Below, one piece after another: positions 24,861-31,616 of a stretch of 64,000 nt of DNA; the first letter of the stretch is position 1; each line of letters begins with the position of its first letter. The notes under the pieces are model-generated. The model worked only from the letters and a program-made list of their open reading frames with translations. It ran no database searches and was not told where the DNA came from. The stretch is from positions 3,472,001 to 3,536,000 of the forward strand of contig NZ_CP063849.1 of the NCBI RefSeq assembly GCF_015277775.1, in the 5' to 3' direction. The translations under genes and the position numbers were made by a program. This DNA is from Paludibaculum fermentans. Its GTDB lineage: Bacteria; Acidobacteriota; Terriglobia; Bryobacterales; Bryobacteraceae.

Positions 24861-26945
24861 ATGTTTTTCTTCCGTTTTCTCCTGATCGCAGCACTGCTGC
24901 CCGTGTCGACCTCGCACAACGGCTGGAGCGTCGTCGGACCGGGCGGCGGCGGAGCAATGTTCCATCCGACGATTAGCCCGCACGACCCCAACCGCGTGCT
25001 GGTCGGCTGCGACATGACTGGCAGCTATCTGTCGGAAGACGGCGGGAAGAGCTGGAAAATGTTCAACTTGCGCGGGCCTGCCAGGTTCTTCCTGTTCGAT
25101 CCGTCCGACCCCAAAGTGGCTTACGCCAAGACCATCGGCTTGTGGCGCAGCGCGGACTCCGGCCACACCTGGACCATGGTGTACCCAGCCAACGCAGCCA
25201 TTGAGGCGGATGGCGATCACGCCGACGAGCGCGTGGTGAGCGACGAACCAGGCATCGACGCCTTGACCATCCACCAGGGCAGGCTATGGGCCGCGATGGG
25301 CACGGCCCTCAAGAGTTCGCGGGATGGCGGCAAGACCTGGGCACCGGTTGCGACACTGCCGGAGCGCGGCATGCACATCGTGGGAGACGCGGGCCGAATT
25401 CATGTGATTGGAGCGAACAGCCTCTCGACGGTGGAAGGCGGCAAATCATCCACCTGGCCGCATGCAGCGTTTGTCGACGTTGCCGCCGGTATTGAGAATG
25501 GCAAAGTGTACTTTTATGGAGCCTCGAAGGAGGGACTTTTCATTTCCGGGGACGGTCAGTCCTGGCGCAAGTCCAGCCTGCACGGCTCGGTGCGGGCGGT
25601 GGCGGCCTCCGAACGGAATGGGCGCACCGCCTATGCCTCCTACCAGGACGGAGCCAGCTTCGGGGTAGCGCGCACAGCCGATGGCGGCGAGACGTGGACG
25701 CTCGGCTGGAAGGAATCCAGGCAGAAAGCGGTGAATGTGGACGACGGCTGGGTGAGCGACCGGTTCGGCCCAGGCTGGGGCGAGCATCCGCTGACGCTGG
25801 GCGTGTCGCCGACGCAGCCGGAACTGGCGTACGGCACCGACCTCGGCCGCACTCTGCGAACGACAGATGGCGGCGCAACCTGGAGGAACACGTACACGAA
25901 CAAGATGCCCGATGGGTCGTACGCTTCCACCGGCCTGGATGTCACCACCAACTACGGCATCCACTTCGACCCGTTCCGGTCCAGCCACCTGTTTCTCAGC
26001 GTGACCGACATCGGCATGATGATGAGCGAGAACGGCGGCCAGAGCTGGCGCAGTGCAACGGAGCATGGAGTTCCGGAAGCATGGTGGAACACCACCTACT
26101 GGATCGAGTTCGATCCCCAGGTCAAAGACCGAATCTATGCGGTGACCGGCGACACGCACGACCTGCCGCGGCCCAAGATGTGGCGTTTCCGTTCGCCCAT
26201 GCAGTTCAAAGGCGGCGTTGTCCGCAGCGACGACGGCGGCAAGACCTGGCGGGCCCTGAAGAATGGACTACCCGAGACATCGGTAACGCATCTGCTGCTC
26301 GACCGGGACAACCACGAGCGCCTCTATATCACCGGCTTCGGTCGAGGAGTATTCCGCTCGGACGATGGTGGCACTTCCTGGCAGAAGAAGAGCTCGGGCC
26401 TGCCCGAAAAGGAGCCGTTCGCCTGGCGGCTGGCCCAGGATTCGAAGGGGACCCTGTACCTGGTGGTGGCGCGGCGCAGTGAGGATGGCAGCATCGGCAA
26501 CGACCGCGACGGTGCCCTGTACAAATCAGCCGATCACGGGGACACCTGGCAGCGCGCGTCGCTGCCTGAGGGAGTGAATGGCCCTAACGGGATTGTGGTG
26601 GACAGCAAAGACCCGCGACGGCTCTATCTTGCGGCCTGGGCGCGCAAGGGTGCAAAGAACGGCGGCATCTTCCTTTCGGAAGACGCGGGCGTCTCGTGGA
26701 AGAATGTCCACAGCGCTGACCAGCACGTCTACGATGTGACGCAGGATCCGGCTCGACCGGAAGTCCTATACGCGACCGGCTATGAATCGTCAGTCTGGCG
26801 GTCAGGCGATCGCGGAGCCACCTGGAAGCGGGTGCCCGGCTACGATTTCAAATGGGGCCAGCGTGTGACGGTGGATCCGTACGCAAAGGACATGATCTAT
26901 GTCTCCACGTTTGGCGGCGGCGTCTGGCATGGACCGGCGCGCTAG
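24861..26945 (+). CDS. secreted BNR/sortilin-like repeat propeller protein
   Basis: A TTG at 24795 in frame is part of a TTGACA promoter element, so I choose ATG 24861, which gives 694 residues and a short signal peptide (MFFFRFLLIAALLPVSTS). The rest is a repeated propeller with BNR/Asp-box type units S-x-D-x-G-x-TW: SEDGGKSWKMF, SADSGHTWTMV, SRDGGKTWAPV, TADGGETWTLG, TTDGGATWRNT, SENGGQSWRSA, SDDGGKTWRAL, SDDGGTSWQKK, SADHGDTWQRA, SEDAGVSWKNV, SGDRGATWKRV. The layout fits GH74-like or sortilin-like proteins. I cannot place both catalytic aspartates of xyloglucanase, so enzymatic activity is unsettled. Its stop codon shares CTAG with the stop of the convergent PAS gene. Confidence 0.85.
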   Translation: MFFFRFLLIAALLPVSTSHNGWSVVGPGGGGAMFHPTISPHDPNRVLVGCDMTGSYLSEDGGKSWKMFNLRGPARFFLFDPSDPKVAYAKTIGLWRSADSGHTWTMVYPANAAIEADGDHADERVVSDEPGIDALTIHQGRLWAAMGTALKSSRDGGKTWAPVATLPERGMHIVGDAGRIHVIGANSLSTVEGGKSSTWPHAAFVDVAAGIENGKVYFYGASKEGLFISGDGQSWRKSSLHGSVRAVAASERNGRTAYASYQDGASFGVARTADGGETWTLGWKESRQKAVNVDDGWVSDRFGPGWGEHPLTLGVSPTQPELAYGTDLGRTLRTTDGGATWRNTYTNKMPDGSYASTGLDVTTNYGIHFDPFRSSHLFLSVTDIGMMMSENGGQSWRSATEHGVPEAWWNTTYWIEFDPQVKDRIYAVTGDTHDLPRPKMWRFRSPMQFKGGVVRSDDGGKTWRALKNGLPETSVTHLLLDRDNHERLYITGFGRGVFRSDDGGTSWQKKSSGLPEKEPFAWRLAQDSKGTLYLVVARRSEDGSIGNDRDGALYKSADHGDTWQRASLPEGVNGPNGIVVDSKDPRRLYLAAWARKGAKNGGIFLSEDAGVSWKNVHSADQHVYDVTQDPARPEVLYATGYESSVWRSGDRGATWKRVPGYDFKWGQRVTVDPYAKDMIYVSTFGGGVWHGPAR

Positions 26946-27778
26946 CCGGATGCGTCCGCCAGTGGATAGCAGAGGTGCGCGATGGCGCGCAGTGCTCCGT
27001 TCTGCATCAGTGGCTTGAGCACCACATCCACGGGAACCAGGCCGCCGCCCTTATGCAGGTGGACCATGCGCAGTTTCCGGGTAGGCCGCATGGTCTCGAG
27101 TACGGCACGGCACGCGTTGGACTCCCGCACCTGCTCGTCCTCCGGCAGCAGGAACCAGACGTGATGGCCAAGCACCTCCTGGCTGGAGTAGCCGAAGAGC
27201 TCCTCAGCCCGGTGGTTCCAGGTCTGGACTACCCCGTCGACCCGTTTCGAGAACACGGTGAAAGGCACCGAATCAACGAGCAGCGACGATTCGAGCGCGA
27301 CGGCATCGAGGCCGCGGAGCTGGGAGATGTCGCGATAGTTGTGGACTATCGCCAGGACGCTGGGATTGTCGAGCATGTCGGTGACAGTGCCTTCCACCCA
27401 GACGTGCGACCCGTCCGGCTTCATCAACCGTAATTGATGCTGGACGACGCCCGCGCGCTGCTCGATGAGGCGCTGGTAGCTCGCGCGCATGGCCGGCTGA
27501 TCGTCAGGGTGGGTGATATTAAGAAAAGACGTCCCGGCCAGGGCAAGGGGTGCATAGCCGAGGATCGACTTCACCACACGGATCACAGTGGCGTCGGCCG
27601 TCGTGAGGGTGATGCCGTCGCGGCTGCCGGCGAGAAGAGACTCGAAGAGAAGGGCGTTCCGGCGGACGGCGTCCTCCAGCCGCTGGAGATTGCCGACCCG
27701 CTCTTCCAACTCGGACACACGCTCCAGCAGGAGCTGATGCACGGGGTCTGGAGCGGCGATGGGTTCCTGTGTGGTCAT
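26942..27778 (-). CDS. tandem PAS-domain protein without output domain
   Basis: ATG 27778 gives 278 residues; the frame extends further upstream but overlaps the preceding gene and has no ribosome binding site there. A short coiled-coil (HQLLLERVSELEERVGNLQRLEDAV) precedes PAS 1 (LFESLLAGSRDGITLTTADATVIRVVKSILGYAPLALAG to VHNYRDISQ) and PAS 2 (LLVDSVPFTVFSKRVDGVVQTWNHRAEELFGYSSQEVLG to VDVVLKPL). No kinase, GGDEF, EAL or HTH domain follows. It lies 4 bases after the degenerate-GGDEF gene, so the two are cotranscribed and may form a sensor pair. The ligand is unknown. Confidence 0.82.
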   Translation of the reverse strand: MTTQEPIAAPDPVHQLLLERVSELEERVGNLQRLEDAVRRNALLFESLLAGSRDGITLTTADATVIRVVKSILGYAPLALAGTSFLNITHPDDQPAMRASYQRLIEQRAGVVQHQLRLMKPDGSHVWVEGTVTDMLDNPSVLAIVHNYRDISQLRGLDAVALESSLLVDSVPFTVFSKRVDGVVQTWNHRAEELFGYSSQEVLGHHVWFLLPEDEQVRESNACRAVLETMRPTRKLRMVHLHKGGGLVPVDVVLKPLMQNGALRAIAHLCYPLADASG

Positions 27779-27782
27779 GGCG

Positions 27783-28796
27783 TTAGCAGTAGTCGAGAGG
27801 AGTCTGGGATGCGATGAACTTGCTGATGAACATGGAGGTGTTCGTGATGGGCGGGATGAGAGCGATGACGGACCAGGCAATGGAGAGCGGCAGCAGGACC
27901 GAGCGGCCGCCAATGTCGACTTCGTTCTGGAGCGGCACATCCAACGCGCGCTTGAGCTTCGAGCGGATCTGATCGATGGTCTCCTGGCGAGGCAACAGCG
28001 CCACAAGTGTGGGGCCGGTCCAGCGGAAGATCTGCTCCCCCTCCTGCATTACTTGAGCCTGCACGTGTTTCTTGAGCAGGCGCAGCATCTCGTCGCCGAC
28101 GGCCTGGCCAAAGCGGGCATTGATGGGCTGCATCCGGCCCACGACCAGCGTAAGGACGTACTTGCGGCCCGCAGTCTTCAACCCTTCCTGAAACGCAGTC
28201 ATGGCAGCAGCCTGATCCGGGAGGTTCGTCACTGGATCCAGGCTGGAGCTTTTGAGCTGGGCAACGGGCGCTTGCGCACGCAGCAGGTGGCCGCGCAGCT
28301 CATTGATGGCCGCGTCGTTCTCCTGTTTCTGGCGGGTTGCCTCGTCGCGCACTTTGACGAGACACGCGCCCAGCCGGGACTTCAAACTCTGCACTGTTTC
28401 AAAGGAAGCGGCCTGCTCCAGGTCTGTACGGATCTCGTTCAGCGCCGGGGCTGCCCGTTCGTTACCTCCGCTGATGGCAATGACTGTCTGTGCCAGCATA
28501 TCGATCATGTTCTGGAGTTCGGAGTCCTGACGCCGGATGGCACGAGTGGTGCGGACAGCGTAGCAATCGAGCGCGTGGATGGCGGCGCCGGCGATGACCA
28601 GCAGTTGATCGTGACTGCAGTCCTGATTAGCCGCTTCCTCGATAGACTGCATGTCCTGCCGGAAGCTGTCGTGCTCCTGCGGGTCGGCGCAGACGGCGTG
28701 ATCCGCCATGCCATGCAGTAGCATGGATACGATTTTGTGCAGCCCGATCTCGTCATCCGAGTTGCTGAGGTACCTCTTGAGCGTGATCAGGGGCAT
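27783..28796 (-). CDS. degenerate GGDEF-domain protein
   Basis: The 337-residue protein has an N-terminal helical region, a coiled coil around EATRQKQENDAAINELRGHLLRAQ, and a C-terminal diguanylate-cyclase fold introduced by SSLDPVTNLPDQAAAMTAFQEGL (the usual D-x-LT-x-L-P-N/D-R linker), then MQPINARFGQAVGDEMLRLLKKHV. At the active-site hairpin the family sequence R-x-GGDEF is replaced by FRWTGPTLVALLP: residues 260-264 read TGPTL, so the metal-binding and catalytic signature is gone and cyclase activity is very unlikely. The downstream PAS gene begins 4 bases after its stop. It may bind GTP or c-di-GMP as a sensor, or act as a scaffold (inference). Confidence 0.8.
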   Translation of the reverse strand: MPLITLKRYLSNSDDEIGLHKIVSMLLHGMADHAVCADPQEHDSFRQDMQSIEEAANQDCSHDQLLVIAGAAIHALDCYAVRTTRAIRRQDSELQNMIDMLAQTVIAISGGNERAAPALNEIRTDLEQAASFETVQSLKSRLGACLVKVRDEATRQKQENDAAINELRGHLLRAQAPVAQLKSSSLDPVTNLPDQAAAMTAFQEGLKTAGRKYVLTLVVGRMQPINARFGQAVGDEMLRLLKKHVQAQVMQEGEQIFRWTGPTLVALLPRQETIDQIRSKLKRALDVPLQNEVDIGGRSVLLPLSIAWSVIALIPPITNTSMFISKFIASQTPLDYC

Positions 28797-28868
28797 GAGT
28801 CCGCCATGACACTGGACTCATCGGCCCGAACGCCGGGCCTTTCAGTAACTTTGCTGTCTCTCCTCCAG

Positions 28869-29738
28869 CTATCGCCCCAACGAGAGAGTCACTACGCCCG
28901 AAGCGATCGAAGCGGCGCTGAGCAGTCGTAGGCGCCCCTGCCGTTCTCCGAGCACCGCTGCGCCCAGCAGGACCGCGAAGAGCATGGAGACCTCCCGTGC
29001 AGGGGCAACCCTGGTCACCGGCGCGTTCTGCATCGCCTGTAGAACCAGGATGTACGCCATGGGCGCGAGCACGGCCACGACCAGGGCGGCCCGGCCGTGC
29101 CGGCGCGCGGCGTCCACAAGATGACGCCCGCGATGCACGACAACCGGCAGCAGAATCAGGGTGCGTGTTGCGTTGGAGAGGTAATCCAGCAGCAGCGGCG
29201 GCATGCGCACGACGCGGACAGACGTCGCGTCCACCACGGTGTAGAGAGCAATGCACACGCCCGTCGCCAGGCCATAGAGGATTCCGCGCCGGCGGGCGCC
29301 AGGGACGGCGGCCACGTGCCCATCCGGCCGCGACAATCCGAGGATCCCCAGCACCACCAGGACCAGGCCGGCGGCGGACGCCAGGGTCACGCGCTCGCCC
29401 AGCAGCACGACGGCAGCCAGGCTGGAGAGCAGGGGACCTGTTCCGCGCGCCACCGGGTAGACCACGCTGAGGTCCGCCACCTGGTAGCCGCGCTGGAGCA
29501 CGAGCCCATACACCACATGGAGCATCCCGCTCAGCGCCACCAGTGCCCAGCCGCGCCAGCCGATCGTGGCGGGCATCGACGGCCAGAACCACACAGCGGC
29601 GGGCGCATAGACGAGGCAGGTGAGGCTGGAGTAGAGAATGACGAAATCCGCTCCGGCGGCCGCGCGTTTGGCCGCCAGGTTCCAGGTGGCGTGCAGCAGG
29701 CCGGAGAGCAAAACAAGAAGAAGAGCGGTGACAGGCAT
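28869..29738 (-). CDS. EamA/DMT-superfamily transporter under a ykkC-type riboswitch
   Basis: The 289-residue membrane protein has ten predicted hydrophobic segments in two EamA halves: the first begins PVTALLLVLLSGLLHATWNLAAKRA, with VLQRGYQVADLSVVYPVARGTGPLLSSLAAVVLLGERVTL closing it; the second ends with RVAPAREVSMLFAVLLGAAVLGERQGRLR. These are the repeated P-x-x-S/LGE features of drug/metabolite exporters. The ribosome binding site GGAGGGA is 8 bases from ATG 29738. The leader 35-160 bases upstream folds like a ykkC subtype-2 riboswitch, which implies control by a nucleotide-type ligand such as ppGpp or PRPP and hints at export of an amino acid or nucleotide-related metabolite. Confidence 0.88.
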   Translation of the reverse strand: MPVTALLLVLLSGLLHATWNLAAKRAAAGADFVILYSSLTCLVYAPAAVWFWPSMPATIGWRGWALVALSGMLHVVYGLVLQRGYQVADLSVVYPVARGTGPLLSSLAAVVLLGERVTLASAAGLVLVVLGILGLSRPDGHVAAVPGARRRGILYGLATGVCIALYTVVDATSVRVVRMPPLLLDYLSNATRTLILLPVVVHRGRHLVDAARRHGRAALVVAVLAPMAYILVLQAMQNAPVTRVAPAREVSMLFAVLLGAAVLGERQGRLRLLSAASIASGVVTLSLGR

Positions 29739-29771
29739 GGGGGCAATCCCTCCAACGCACAGATTGGGTAG

Positions 29772-29896
29772 CCCGACTTGTCCGCCTCTGGGGTTTTGTC
29801 CCTAGGGTGCAGGCCGCAAACACGGCTCTCTGTGACGCTCGGACCGTGCGCTTGGCCAGCGCGGCCAGCAGGAACCCTAGTCACCACTCGGTCGAG
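29772..29896 (-). ncRNA. ykkC-family (subtype 2-like) riboswitch
   Basis: On the minus strand I read in order CTAGGGTTCC (29880-29871), a stem CCGCGCT/AGCGC-CGG, GGTCCGAGCG then TCACAG, a second stem GCCG/CGGC, and GCACCCTAGGGACAAAACC. These are the conserved blocks of ykkC RNAs. GAGCG with nearby AC-G and CACC..AGGGACAAAA match the subtype-2 (ppGpp, PRPP, ADP) branch as I recall it, whereas guanidine-I RNAs have GAGAG and CGG-GGGATAAAAG. CTCGAC (29896-29891) can pair with GTCGGG (29777-29772) as outer helix. The EamA gene starts 34 bases downstream. Ligand class cannot be settled by eye. Confidence 0.75.
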
Positions 29897-30014
29897 TGGA
29901 CTCAGTCTAGCATGGGGCCGGCCGGCCACGGCGAGGTGCGATCGGCTGCGCCGGCTCAGCCGCCGGCAGGCTCGCGGTGACGGCGCTCTTGTCAAATGAT
30001 TTCCCTGGTTTTCC

Positions 30015-30116: not shown

Positions 30117-31616
30117 GTGAGTACAGTTTCCCGCCGTATTTTCCTGCAGACAAACGTGTCTGCCGCCGCGTTGGCGGCCGCACAGGCCCCCGCCTGGACG
30201 GGTCCCGCAGCCGCCGATCGCCTGGATCAGGGGCCTTTTGAAGCCGAGCAGGACGACGGTTGGATGACACTCTCTTCAACGTCGGCTCACGAAGGCCCGC
30301 TGCGGAATCCAGGACTGGGCCTGATGGGCTACACATGGGAGGAAGGCGGCCCGTCGCTGGCGGCGCGTAGTGGAAAAGAGACCCTCGAACAACATGTAGA
30401 CCGGTTATCGAGCCTGCCCTTTGTCGACATTCTGTACATCCGGTGCGACTGGCGGCATGTACAGAAACAGGCCGGCCGGCTGGATCTGCACCCCATCTGG
30501 AAGCTGACGCTGGATGCCGCCAAAGCGAGAGGGCAGAGGGTGGCGTTCCGCGTCCAGCTCTCCAATCCCAGCGCGCCGGATGAGCCTATCGCCATGCCGG
30601 CCTTCGTCCGCGAAAAGGTGCCGCTGGTGAACATCGGGCGCGATCGGGCAAACGGCCAGACGAAGGATTCGTTCGAGCCGCGCTACGACCATCCGGAGTT
30701 CCGCAAGGCCTTCAGGGAATTGAACGAATTGCTCTCGGCACAGTTCGACGGGCATCCTCAGGTGGAGTTCGTCGACCTGATGCAGTACGGGTATTGGGGC
30801 GAAGGCCACACGGCCAATCTGCACAATCCCTTTCCTGACTATGCGACAGCCGAGCGGACGTTTGTGGACTTCACGCGGCAGCAGCTCGAGGCATGGAAGC
30901 GGACGCCGCTGGCAGTGAATACCGAGCCCGACATCAGCCTGGTGGGCAACCGCCGGGTGATCGAGATGTGCACCGGCGCCGGGGCCTGGCTGCGTTCGGA
31001 CAGCATCCTGGTGGAAGAACCGATTCAAATCGACATGCTCGCCAACCGGCCGCCCTGGCTGGCGGTGATCATGGAGGACGGCTATGACAGGCAGTACAAG
31101 CTCGCCATGCAGCCGAGGCTGGAACGGGCCATGCGGCACGTGCTGAACGTCGGAGGGAACTACTGGTCGCTGTGGACCGAGGCCGCCAACCTCGATGCGT
31201 TTCACAAGGCCTTCCCGCGGGGTTTCGAGAGCCTGCGCAGCCGCATGGGTTACCGCCTGCGCCCGGGCTGGCTCTGGCAACGTAAACGCCGCGGCGCCTA
31301 TGAGTTGGTGACCGCCATCGTGAATGAAGGGGTGGCCGGCGTGCCAGGTGTTCTGCGGGTGAAAGCGGCCACGCCTGACGGTAAGTTCCAGGCGCAGGGA
31401 TCGCTGGATCCAGGACACCCTTACGCGGGCAAGCTTCGGCAGTGTGCCTTTGCCATCCCACGGGAGTTGGAAGGGCAGACACTGCGGCTGGAGGCGGAAA
31501 TCGAGTTGCGGCCCGGGGTGCGGCGTCCGGTCCAGTGGGCCTCCGAGCCGCTGGGGCAGCCCGTCGAAGTGCAACTGATGCGTTGGTCGGATGCTCGCTG
31601 GCGCAAGAATATTTAA
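30117..31616 (+). CDS. Tat-exported glycoside-hydrolase-like (DUF4832-type) protein
   Basis: The start GTG 30117 has GAGGTG upstream and yields a twin-arginine signal (SRRIFLQTNVSAAALAAAQA). The 499-residue product looks like a TIM-barrel hydrolase of the DUF4832/GH42-related group: RNPGLGLMGYTWE, FVDILYIRCDWRHVQ, HPQVEFVDLMQYGYWGEGH (a possible acid residue), VNTEPDISLVGN, WRxxxILVEEPI-type segment and YWSLWTEAAN, followed by a C-terminal beta-sandwich (ELVTAIVNEGVAGVPGVLRVKA to VEVQLMRW). Substrate is unknown, but the gene heads an operon with a sugar isomerase and a sugar kinase, so it probably liberates or binds the sugar taken up. Confidence 0.7.
   Translation: MSTVSRRIFLQTNVSAAALAAAQAPAWTGPAAADRLDQGPFEAEQDDGWMTLSSTSAHEGPLRNPGLGLMGYTWEEGGPSLAARSGKETLEQHVDRLSSLPFVDILYIRCDWRHVQKQAGRLDLHPIWKLTLDAAKARGQRVAFRVQLSNPSAPDEPIAMPAFVREKVPLVNIGRDRANGQTKDSFEPRYDHPEFRKAFRELNELLSAQFDGHPQVEFVDLMQYGYWGEGHTANLHNPFPDYATAERTFVDFTRQQLEAWKRTPLAVNTEPDISLVGNRRVIEMCTGAGAWLRSDSILVEEPIQIDMLANRPPWLAVIMEDGYDRQYKLAMQPRLERAMRHVLNVGGNYWSLWTEAANLDAFHKAFPRGFESLRSRMGYRLRPGWLWQRKRRGAYELVTAIVNEGVAGVPGVLRVKAATPDGKFQAQGSLDPGHPYAGKLRQCAFAIPRELEGQTLRLEAEIELRPGVRRPVQWASEPLGQPVEVQLMRWSDARWRKNI

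Follow-up and report, generated by a model that had tools for sequence, protein, structure and literature searches.

In the 64,000-nucleotide stretch of Paludibaculum fermentans DNA analysed here (the window), a single exporter gene has a 5' leader that, judging from its sequence, is probably a cis-acting riboswitch of ykkC subtype 2d. The RNAs of ykkC subtype 2 have been divided into 2a, which recognizes ppGpp, 2b, which recognizes PRPP, 2c, which recognizes nucleoside diphosphates, and 2d, according to the accounts in PMC5912903 and PMC7266159. In these accounts, the genes found with 2d encode phn_DUF6/EamA and TauE transporters, and 2d was still an orphan in 2020. We recognized no report of a 2d ligand among the titles and abstract openings of the open-access papers that a search listed, and one may exist elsewhere. 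By sequence comparison, the window holds a real and well-supported member of this orphan riboswitch class, and, together with the gene behind it, this acidobacterial RNA extends the one ykkC class that the papers of 2018 and 2020 left without a ligand. The new content consists of the class assignment, a split at a marker base and a comparison that narrows the ligand.

The minus strand of segment [29766-29900] reads CUCGACCGAGUGGUGA-CUAGGGUUCC ... GGUCCGAGCG-UCACAG ... GCACCCUAGGGACAAAACCCCAGAGGCGGACAAGUCGGG. An earlier note on this DNA had quoted four motifs from this strand, all of which are present in the order that it gave. It had also placed the element at 29772-29896, which is the right site but slightly too narrow, as the element with its P0 helix runs from 29900 to 29766. 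The comparison with Rfam models that it proposed had a mixed outcome. Nothing in the whole window reached a gathering threshold, but in a search of 301 bases the Guanidine-I model, RF00442, matched the leader over its full length with 40.3 bits (E 4.3e-6). The gathering score of RF00442 is 63 bits, and the leader therefore lies outside the cut-off of the Guanidine-I family. Guanidine-I was the only Rfam family that matched the leader above chance, and in the whole 9.5 Mb genome, where 150 of 262 candidates were scored, the leader was the one match reported at E<=0.001. RF00442 also matched all eight subtype-2 loci that were tested, with 42.8-55.7 bits, each below 63. A second model, R1, was built from an alignment (A2) of 42 transporter-linked RNAs that excluded the window. 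R1 matched the leader with 92 bits (E 1.8e-28), and this was its sole match in the window at E<=1. Both scores agree with the ykkC identity proposed earlier, and the R1 match is the opposite of the lack of a significant covariance-model hit that had been named as grounds for dropping it. The features of the leader and of its gene are listed in Table 1.

Table 1 Coordinates of the putative riboswitch and of the exporter gene in the window.
Feature	Position	Strand	Basis or remark
EamA transporter, phn_DUF6-like, 289 aa	28869..29738	-	PF00892, E 2.3e-22
GGAGG, likely ribosome binding site	29749..29753	-	sequence; inference
Probable ykkC subtype 2d aptamer, whole model match	29766..29900	-	R1 92 bits, E 1.8e-28; RF00442 40.3 bits at 29784-29891
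P0 helix, 3' strand GUCGGG	29772..29777	-	sequence and R1 alignment
G96 equivalent	29788	-	G, as in PRPP riboswitch
P3 hairpin GGG-ACAAAAC-CCC	29790..29802	-	R1 alignment
Pocket motif CACC, equivalent to C75, A76, C77, C78 of PRPP riboswitch	29806..29809	-	sequence; contacts from PMC6031431
P2 hairpin (GCCG/CGGC)	29813..29826	-	R1 alignment
P1, 3' strand GUCAC	29832..29836	-	sequence and R1 alignment
Conserved GGUCCGAGCG, with subtype marker C at 29837	29836..29845	-	sequence
P1b, with U29870-A29847 in place of the G-C pair of relatives	29847..29870	-	A2 pair columns
Conserved CUAGGGUUCC	29871..29880	-	sequence; conserved core in A2
P1, 5' strand GUGAC	29880..29884	-	pairs with 29832-29836
P0 helix, 5' strand CUCGAC	29891..29896	-	pairs with 29772-29777

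The named structure is well represented in A2, where 92.3% of its pairs are standard and where its covariation score is 0.343, compared with 0.153 (sd 0.010) for shuffled alignments and a maximum of 0.080 when the structure was slid. The columns of P0 are paired in 91.4% of cells, with changes on both sides in three of five pairs. The corresponding values are 98.6% and three of five for P1 (helix 2 of A2), 72.0% and four of four for P2, and 95.2% and two of three for P3. Further pair types were no more numerous than in shuffles (82 of 500 had as high a count). Minimum-energy folding alone gave the leader no support (z-score +0.38; 135 of 200 shuffles fold as well or better). Over 36 columns conserved in 29 relatives, the window keeps 34, and its only two departures form the compensatory U-A pair in P1b.

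The binding pocket of the PRPP riboswitch, as described in PMC6031431, contacts the 5-phosphate through G48, C49 (via a metal) and C78, the ribose through C77, G96 and G104, and the pyrophosphate through A5, G6, A101 and G105. The same description states that C49 is an A in guanidine-I, that the P0 helix is absent from guanidine-I, and that the change G96A makes the PRPP aptamer one for ppGpp. In the window, sites 48, 49, 77, 78 and 96 are occupied by G29838, C29837, C29807, C29806 and G29788, respectively, and on account of these bases it is of neither the guanidine-I nor the ppGpp type. The earlier assignment to subtype 2 rather than to guanidine-I thus stands, on the marker base, which is C and not A, on the CACC motif and on the P0 helix.

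Relatives were collected with a DNA pattern in which CACC and GAGG were fixed and the marker position was left free. A scan of the genome contig collection gave 101 stretches, and 80 were fetched, from hosts that include alphaproteobacteria, actinomycetes, Chloroflexi, a cyanobacterium, acidobacteria, Bipolaricaulota and Firmicutes. This pattern fixes CACC, G48 and G96, and the training rows of R1 were of the same kind; the marker, which was free, is C in all 80 loci. By tblastn, the gene that follows encodes an EamA or TauE protein in 67 loci (42 phn_DUF6-like, 19 other EamA and 6 TauE). The remaining 13 consist of eight loci with a purine gene, one with a histidine phosphatase and four that were unreadable at record ends. 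Representative downstream proteins were checked, seven by Pfam and six by NCBIfam. The EamA protein of the window has an identity of 59% over 171 residues to its homologue from an acidobacterial MAG, of 40-50% to 22 others and of 28-34% to ten. The gene families that recur beside the transporter in the 67 relatives, inspected by eye for the 45 largest clusters listed, could be put down to close-kin sets, to reverse-strand shadows or to widespread families, an example being a dehydrogenase-like family in nine loci. At one purine-gene locus (L024), a purine-riboswitch match also adjoins the ykkC RNA, which is the guanine-PRPP tandem arrangement described in PMC5912903. The histidine-phosphatase gene, in a proteobacterial MAG, is preceded by a PRPP-like ykkC RNA (L054, 2677-2797).

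Three types, alpha, beta and gamma, are distinguished among the transporter-linked RNAs. The gamma (actinobacterial) type, which includes L016, L020, L031, L062 and L063, has a long P1b insert of 42-81 nt in 22 RNAs, compared with 15-33 nt in 46 of 47 alpha and beta RNAs. By eye, gamma RNAs also have a recurrent ACAAUCAGGG-like motif and a distinct 3' flank, and the type is common to phn_DUF6 and TauE genes. These RNAs are possibly a further subclass.

Since the pattern fixed CACC, genomes were searched with R1 instead. In an alphaproteobacterial class, 16 of 240 genomes had matches at E<=1e-4, and in an order of that class 32 of 297 had matches at E<=1e-12, with 30 of 33 places fetched. The 47 model-found RNAs that were aligned include the window, its sister species, two pattern-set sites and one actinobacterial RNA; the window, the sister and the two pattern-set sites are among the 29 that are transporter-linked. 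In all 29, which precede a phn_DUF6 homologue, the marker is C, and 28 have CACC, the sister having CAUC. In the remaining 18 the marker is A (17) or G (1), every one carries CACGG, and L139, which was added later, has A with CACGG and is of the same kind. After 13 of these 18 RNAs the reading frames, judged by eye, resemble one substrate-binding protein at their start (10), ABC permeases (2) or an agmatinase-type enzyme (1), and we take the 18 to be guanidine-I RNAs. The R1 search found A-type RNAs but none before a transporter; as R1 was trained on CACC rows, weak A-type RNAs in that position could be missed. R1 scores are 65-71 bits for purine-gene RNAs, 30-55 bits for the actinobacterial type and 55-114 bits for transporter-linked alphaproteobacterial RNAs. 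The last range overlaps that of the purine-gene RNAs, and so the bit score alone cannot separate the classes; in the RNAs compared, they are separated by base pattern and gene.

At positions 5-7, the window reads GUG. The eight purine-gene RNAs read AGU (7) or AGC (1), and the 18 transporter-linked RNAs of the window's type read GUG (12), AUG (4) or ACG (2), without any A5-G6. In the other transporter types, nine of the 29 beta RNAs read AGG, and none of the 22 gamma RNAs has AG. Because nine beta RNAs read AG, the loss of A5-G6 is not a mark of the whole transporter-linked class. We infer that the ribose-5-phosphate half of the pocket was kept and that the pyrophosphate edge was rebuilt in most types; the DNA pattern itself had fixed several of these bases, however, and kept pocket bases are no proof of a kept ligand.

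The window shares its ykkC fold and core, its non-A marker and its downstream phn_DUF6/EamA gene with the published 2d RNAs, and differs from them in its acidobacterial host and in the U-A pair that replaces G-C in P1b. This assignment rests on fold, marker and downstream gene. The earlier note had instead placed the leader in the branch that binds ppGpp, PRPP or ADP, and this placement was not supported by the comparison. It is improbable that a PRPP, ppGpp or nucleoside-diphosphate riboswitch was recruited to a transporter here, even though the window shares the P0 helix, the marker C, CACC and G96 with PRPP riboswitches, keeps the bases that contact the 5-phosphate and the ribose, and is compatible with PRPP at 48, 49, 75-78 and 96. 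All eight purine-gene RNAs have A5-G6, but neither the window nor any of the 18 RNAs of its type does, which disfavours PRPP. The window also differs from PRPP riboswitches in its P0-P1 and 3' linkers and in having a transporter gene in place of one for purine biosynthesis or salvage. With ppGpp riboswitches, the leader shares the subtype-2 marker, but position 96 is G in the window and not G in 2a, which disfavours ppGpp, and an amino-acid biosynthesis gene is missing. Subtype 2c is set apart on gene context, with a NUDIX or HAD hydrolase gene downstream where the window has EamA. The gene context is the one published for 2d, as far as PMC5912903 and PMC7266159 describe it. On R1, the window reaches 92 bits and the purine-gene RNAs 65-71, although some transporter-linked RNAs score no higher than these and go down to 55. 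A divergent guanidine-I riboswitch is very improbable. The window has P1, P1b, P2, P3 and most core bases in common with RF00442, but the match to this family, which all eight subtype-2 loci also produce, stays below the gathering score. Moreover, the leader has C for A at the marker, where 17 of the 18 model-found RNAs without a transporter have A, it has CACC for CACG and a P0 helix, and no known guanidine gene was recognized beside it. Nor is the leader likely to be a decaying relic that has lost its switching, which we regard as quite improbable. Among 37 close genomes only the window and its sister match above chance level, the sister departs from the consensus at seven of 36 conserved columns, and the window has no clear expression platform; the window itself, however, keeps 34 of these columns, and its two changes compensate each other within one pair.

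For a 2d riboswitch, the nature of the ligand can be discussed on the same bases. Our tentative reading is that the ligand could be a small compound, either phosphorylated (5-phosphoribosyl-like) or a phosphonate. The reason is that the PRPP contacts to ribose and 5-phosphate persist, with A5-G6 replaced in the window's type. A phosphorylated ligand being possible, the chemistry guessed in the earlier note may have been near the truth. More tentatively, 2d RNAs, including that of the window, might generally sense a phosphorylated sugar or phosphonate and not a guanidine-like cation, and three groups of exporters, namely two EamA subfamilies and the unrelated TauE proteins, might export that compound. 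A literature search on glyphosate or phosphonate export by EamA proteins gave nothing usable. Sherlock et al. (2018, PMC5912903) consider the 2d consensus most like that of guanidine-I, note that its transporters and the guanidine exporters belong to a common DMT superfamily, and propose a small toxic charged ligand. The use of TauE and of two EamA subfamilies also suggests the export of something unwanted. We nevertheless consider a toxic cation or guanidine-like compound somewhat unlikely, since at the sites that distinguish guanidine-I (marker A and CACG) all 29 transporter-linked model-found RNAs have C and 28 of them CACC, and since they have the P0 helix that guanidine-I lacks in the description of PMC6031431. 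The C/CACC combination before transporters, the A/CACGG combination elsewhere and the kept ribose-phosphate contact bases narrow the search for the ligand. Its identity would point to what is exported by phn_DUF6-like proteins, by the second EamA subfamily and by TauE proteins. If the phosphorylated or phosphonate reading is true, the leader would belong to a phospho-metabolite export system and would give a ligand family to a ykkC class that was an orphan in 2020.

The best NCBIfam model for the protein of the exporter gene is TIGR03340, phn_DUF6 (E 3.3e-43); the score of 148 bits falls short of its equivalog cut-off, 288. The EamA gene that the earlier note had placed 34 bases away was found as described, with a start codon at 29738, at that distance from 29772. 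The note had called it the only gene downstream, but two more genes of this strand, one for a GGDEF protein (27783-28796) and one for a PAS protein, lie 3' of the EamA gene. However, a block of about 1.9 kb with these two genes (window 26941-28873) is absent from the same site in the sister species; they are thus no fixed operon partners of the EamA gene, which fits a single regulated gene. On the other side of the leader, TGCTAGACT (29904-29912, minus strand) is possibly an extended -10 element; its letters are identical in the sister species, and a promoter scan found none. On the plus strand, the stretch 29927-29995 adjoins the leader and lies upstream of a reading frame at 30117. In a search of 301 bases it matched the SAH riboswitch, RF01057, weakly (22.6 bits against 37, E 0.029), and by eye it is poorly conserved in the sister, so that this match is probably due to chance.

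The aptamer would bind the substrate of the exporter or a close relative of it, and the ligand would close P0 against P3. Translation would then rise, as in an ON switch, and the cell would export the accumulated compound. The guanidine, ppGpp and PRPP riboswitches are ON switches according to PMC6031431, and both the ON direction and the expression platform are putative for the window's leader. No terminator-like site was found between aptamer and start codon, which makes control at translation the likelier mode. Complementarity between the 3' strand of P0 and the ribosome site was tried for 26 leaders and scored, with 300 shuffles each, in 22; the sister, L026, L145 and L146 had no scorable ribosome site. 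In 14 of the 21 scored relatives, often alphaproteobacterial, 5% of shuffles or fewer were as good, but many of these leaders are near-identical and therefore not independent. The other seven were above 5% (L025, L035, L082, L086, L089, L093 with 46% and L038 with 71%). In the window, the complementarity was not significant, about 50% of 300 shuffles being as good. Folding of the window's leader with the aptamer forced, at a cost of 28.5 kcal/mol relative to the free minimum, left the start codon less accessible, which argues against the simple ON picture.

In 37 close genomes, R1 gave above-chance matches only in the window's genome (92 bits) and in the sister, G002 (46 bits), and six other matches at E<=0.1 had 16.7-20.9 bits. 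The sister aptamer (L118 / L003) has changed at seven of 36 conserved columns, including C77 to U, while its transporter is 89% identical. Given these seven departures, the sister copy may be decaying or may have changed its specificity. Across the phylum, RF00442 matched in four of 396 genomes and missed the window's own, which makes this multi-genome search lossy. Its matches in three Acidobacteriota genomes (L012, L013 and L014) lie before an EamA gene. Another (L015, 25.4 bits) is inside a coding sequence and looks like chance. R1 matched in two of 297 genomes of the phylum, the window's and G121. In a tree, one row of which (L056) is a wrong-frame reading frame with a very long branch, the window groups with the sister and the acidobacterial MAG L093 at 87/91, on a branch that is not starred. 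Transfer from Proteobacteria was considered; the 87/91 grouping not being a starred branch, it shows nothing on this point.

Copies on plasmids were found as well. From 76 plasmid records with a match, six copies were examined, which had no common neighbour gene, and in four of them an R1 match of 86-109 bits lies just upstream of the exporter gene. These four are the Ti plasmid pTiCFBP5877 (L174, 5795-5926) and three other alphaproteobacterial plasmids.
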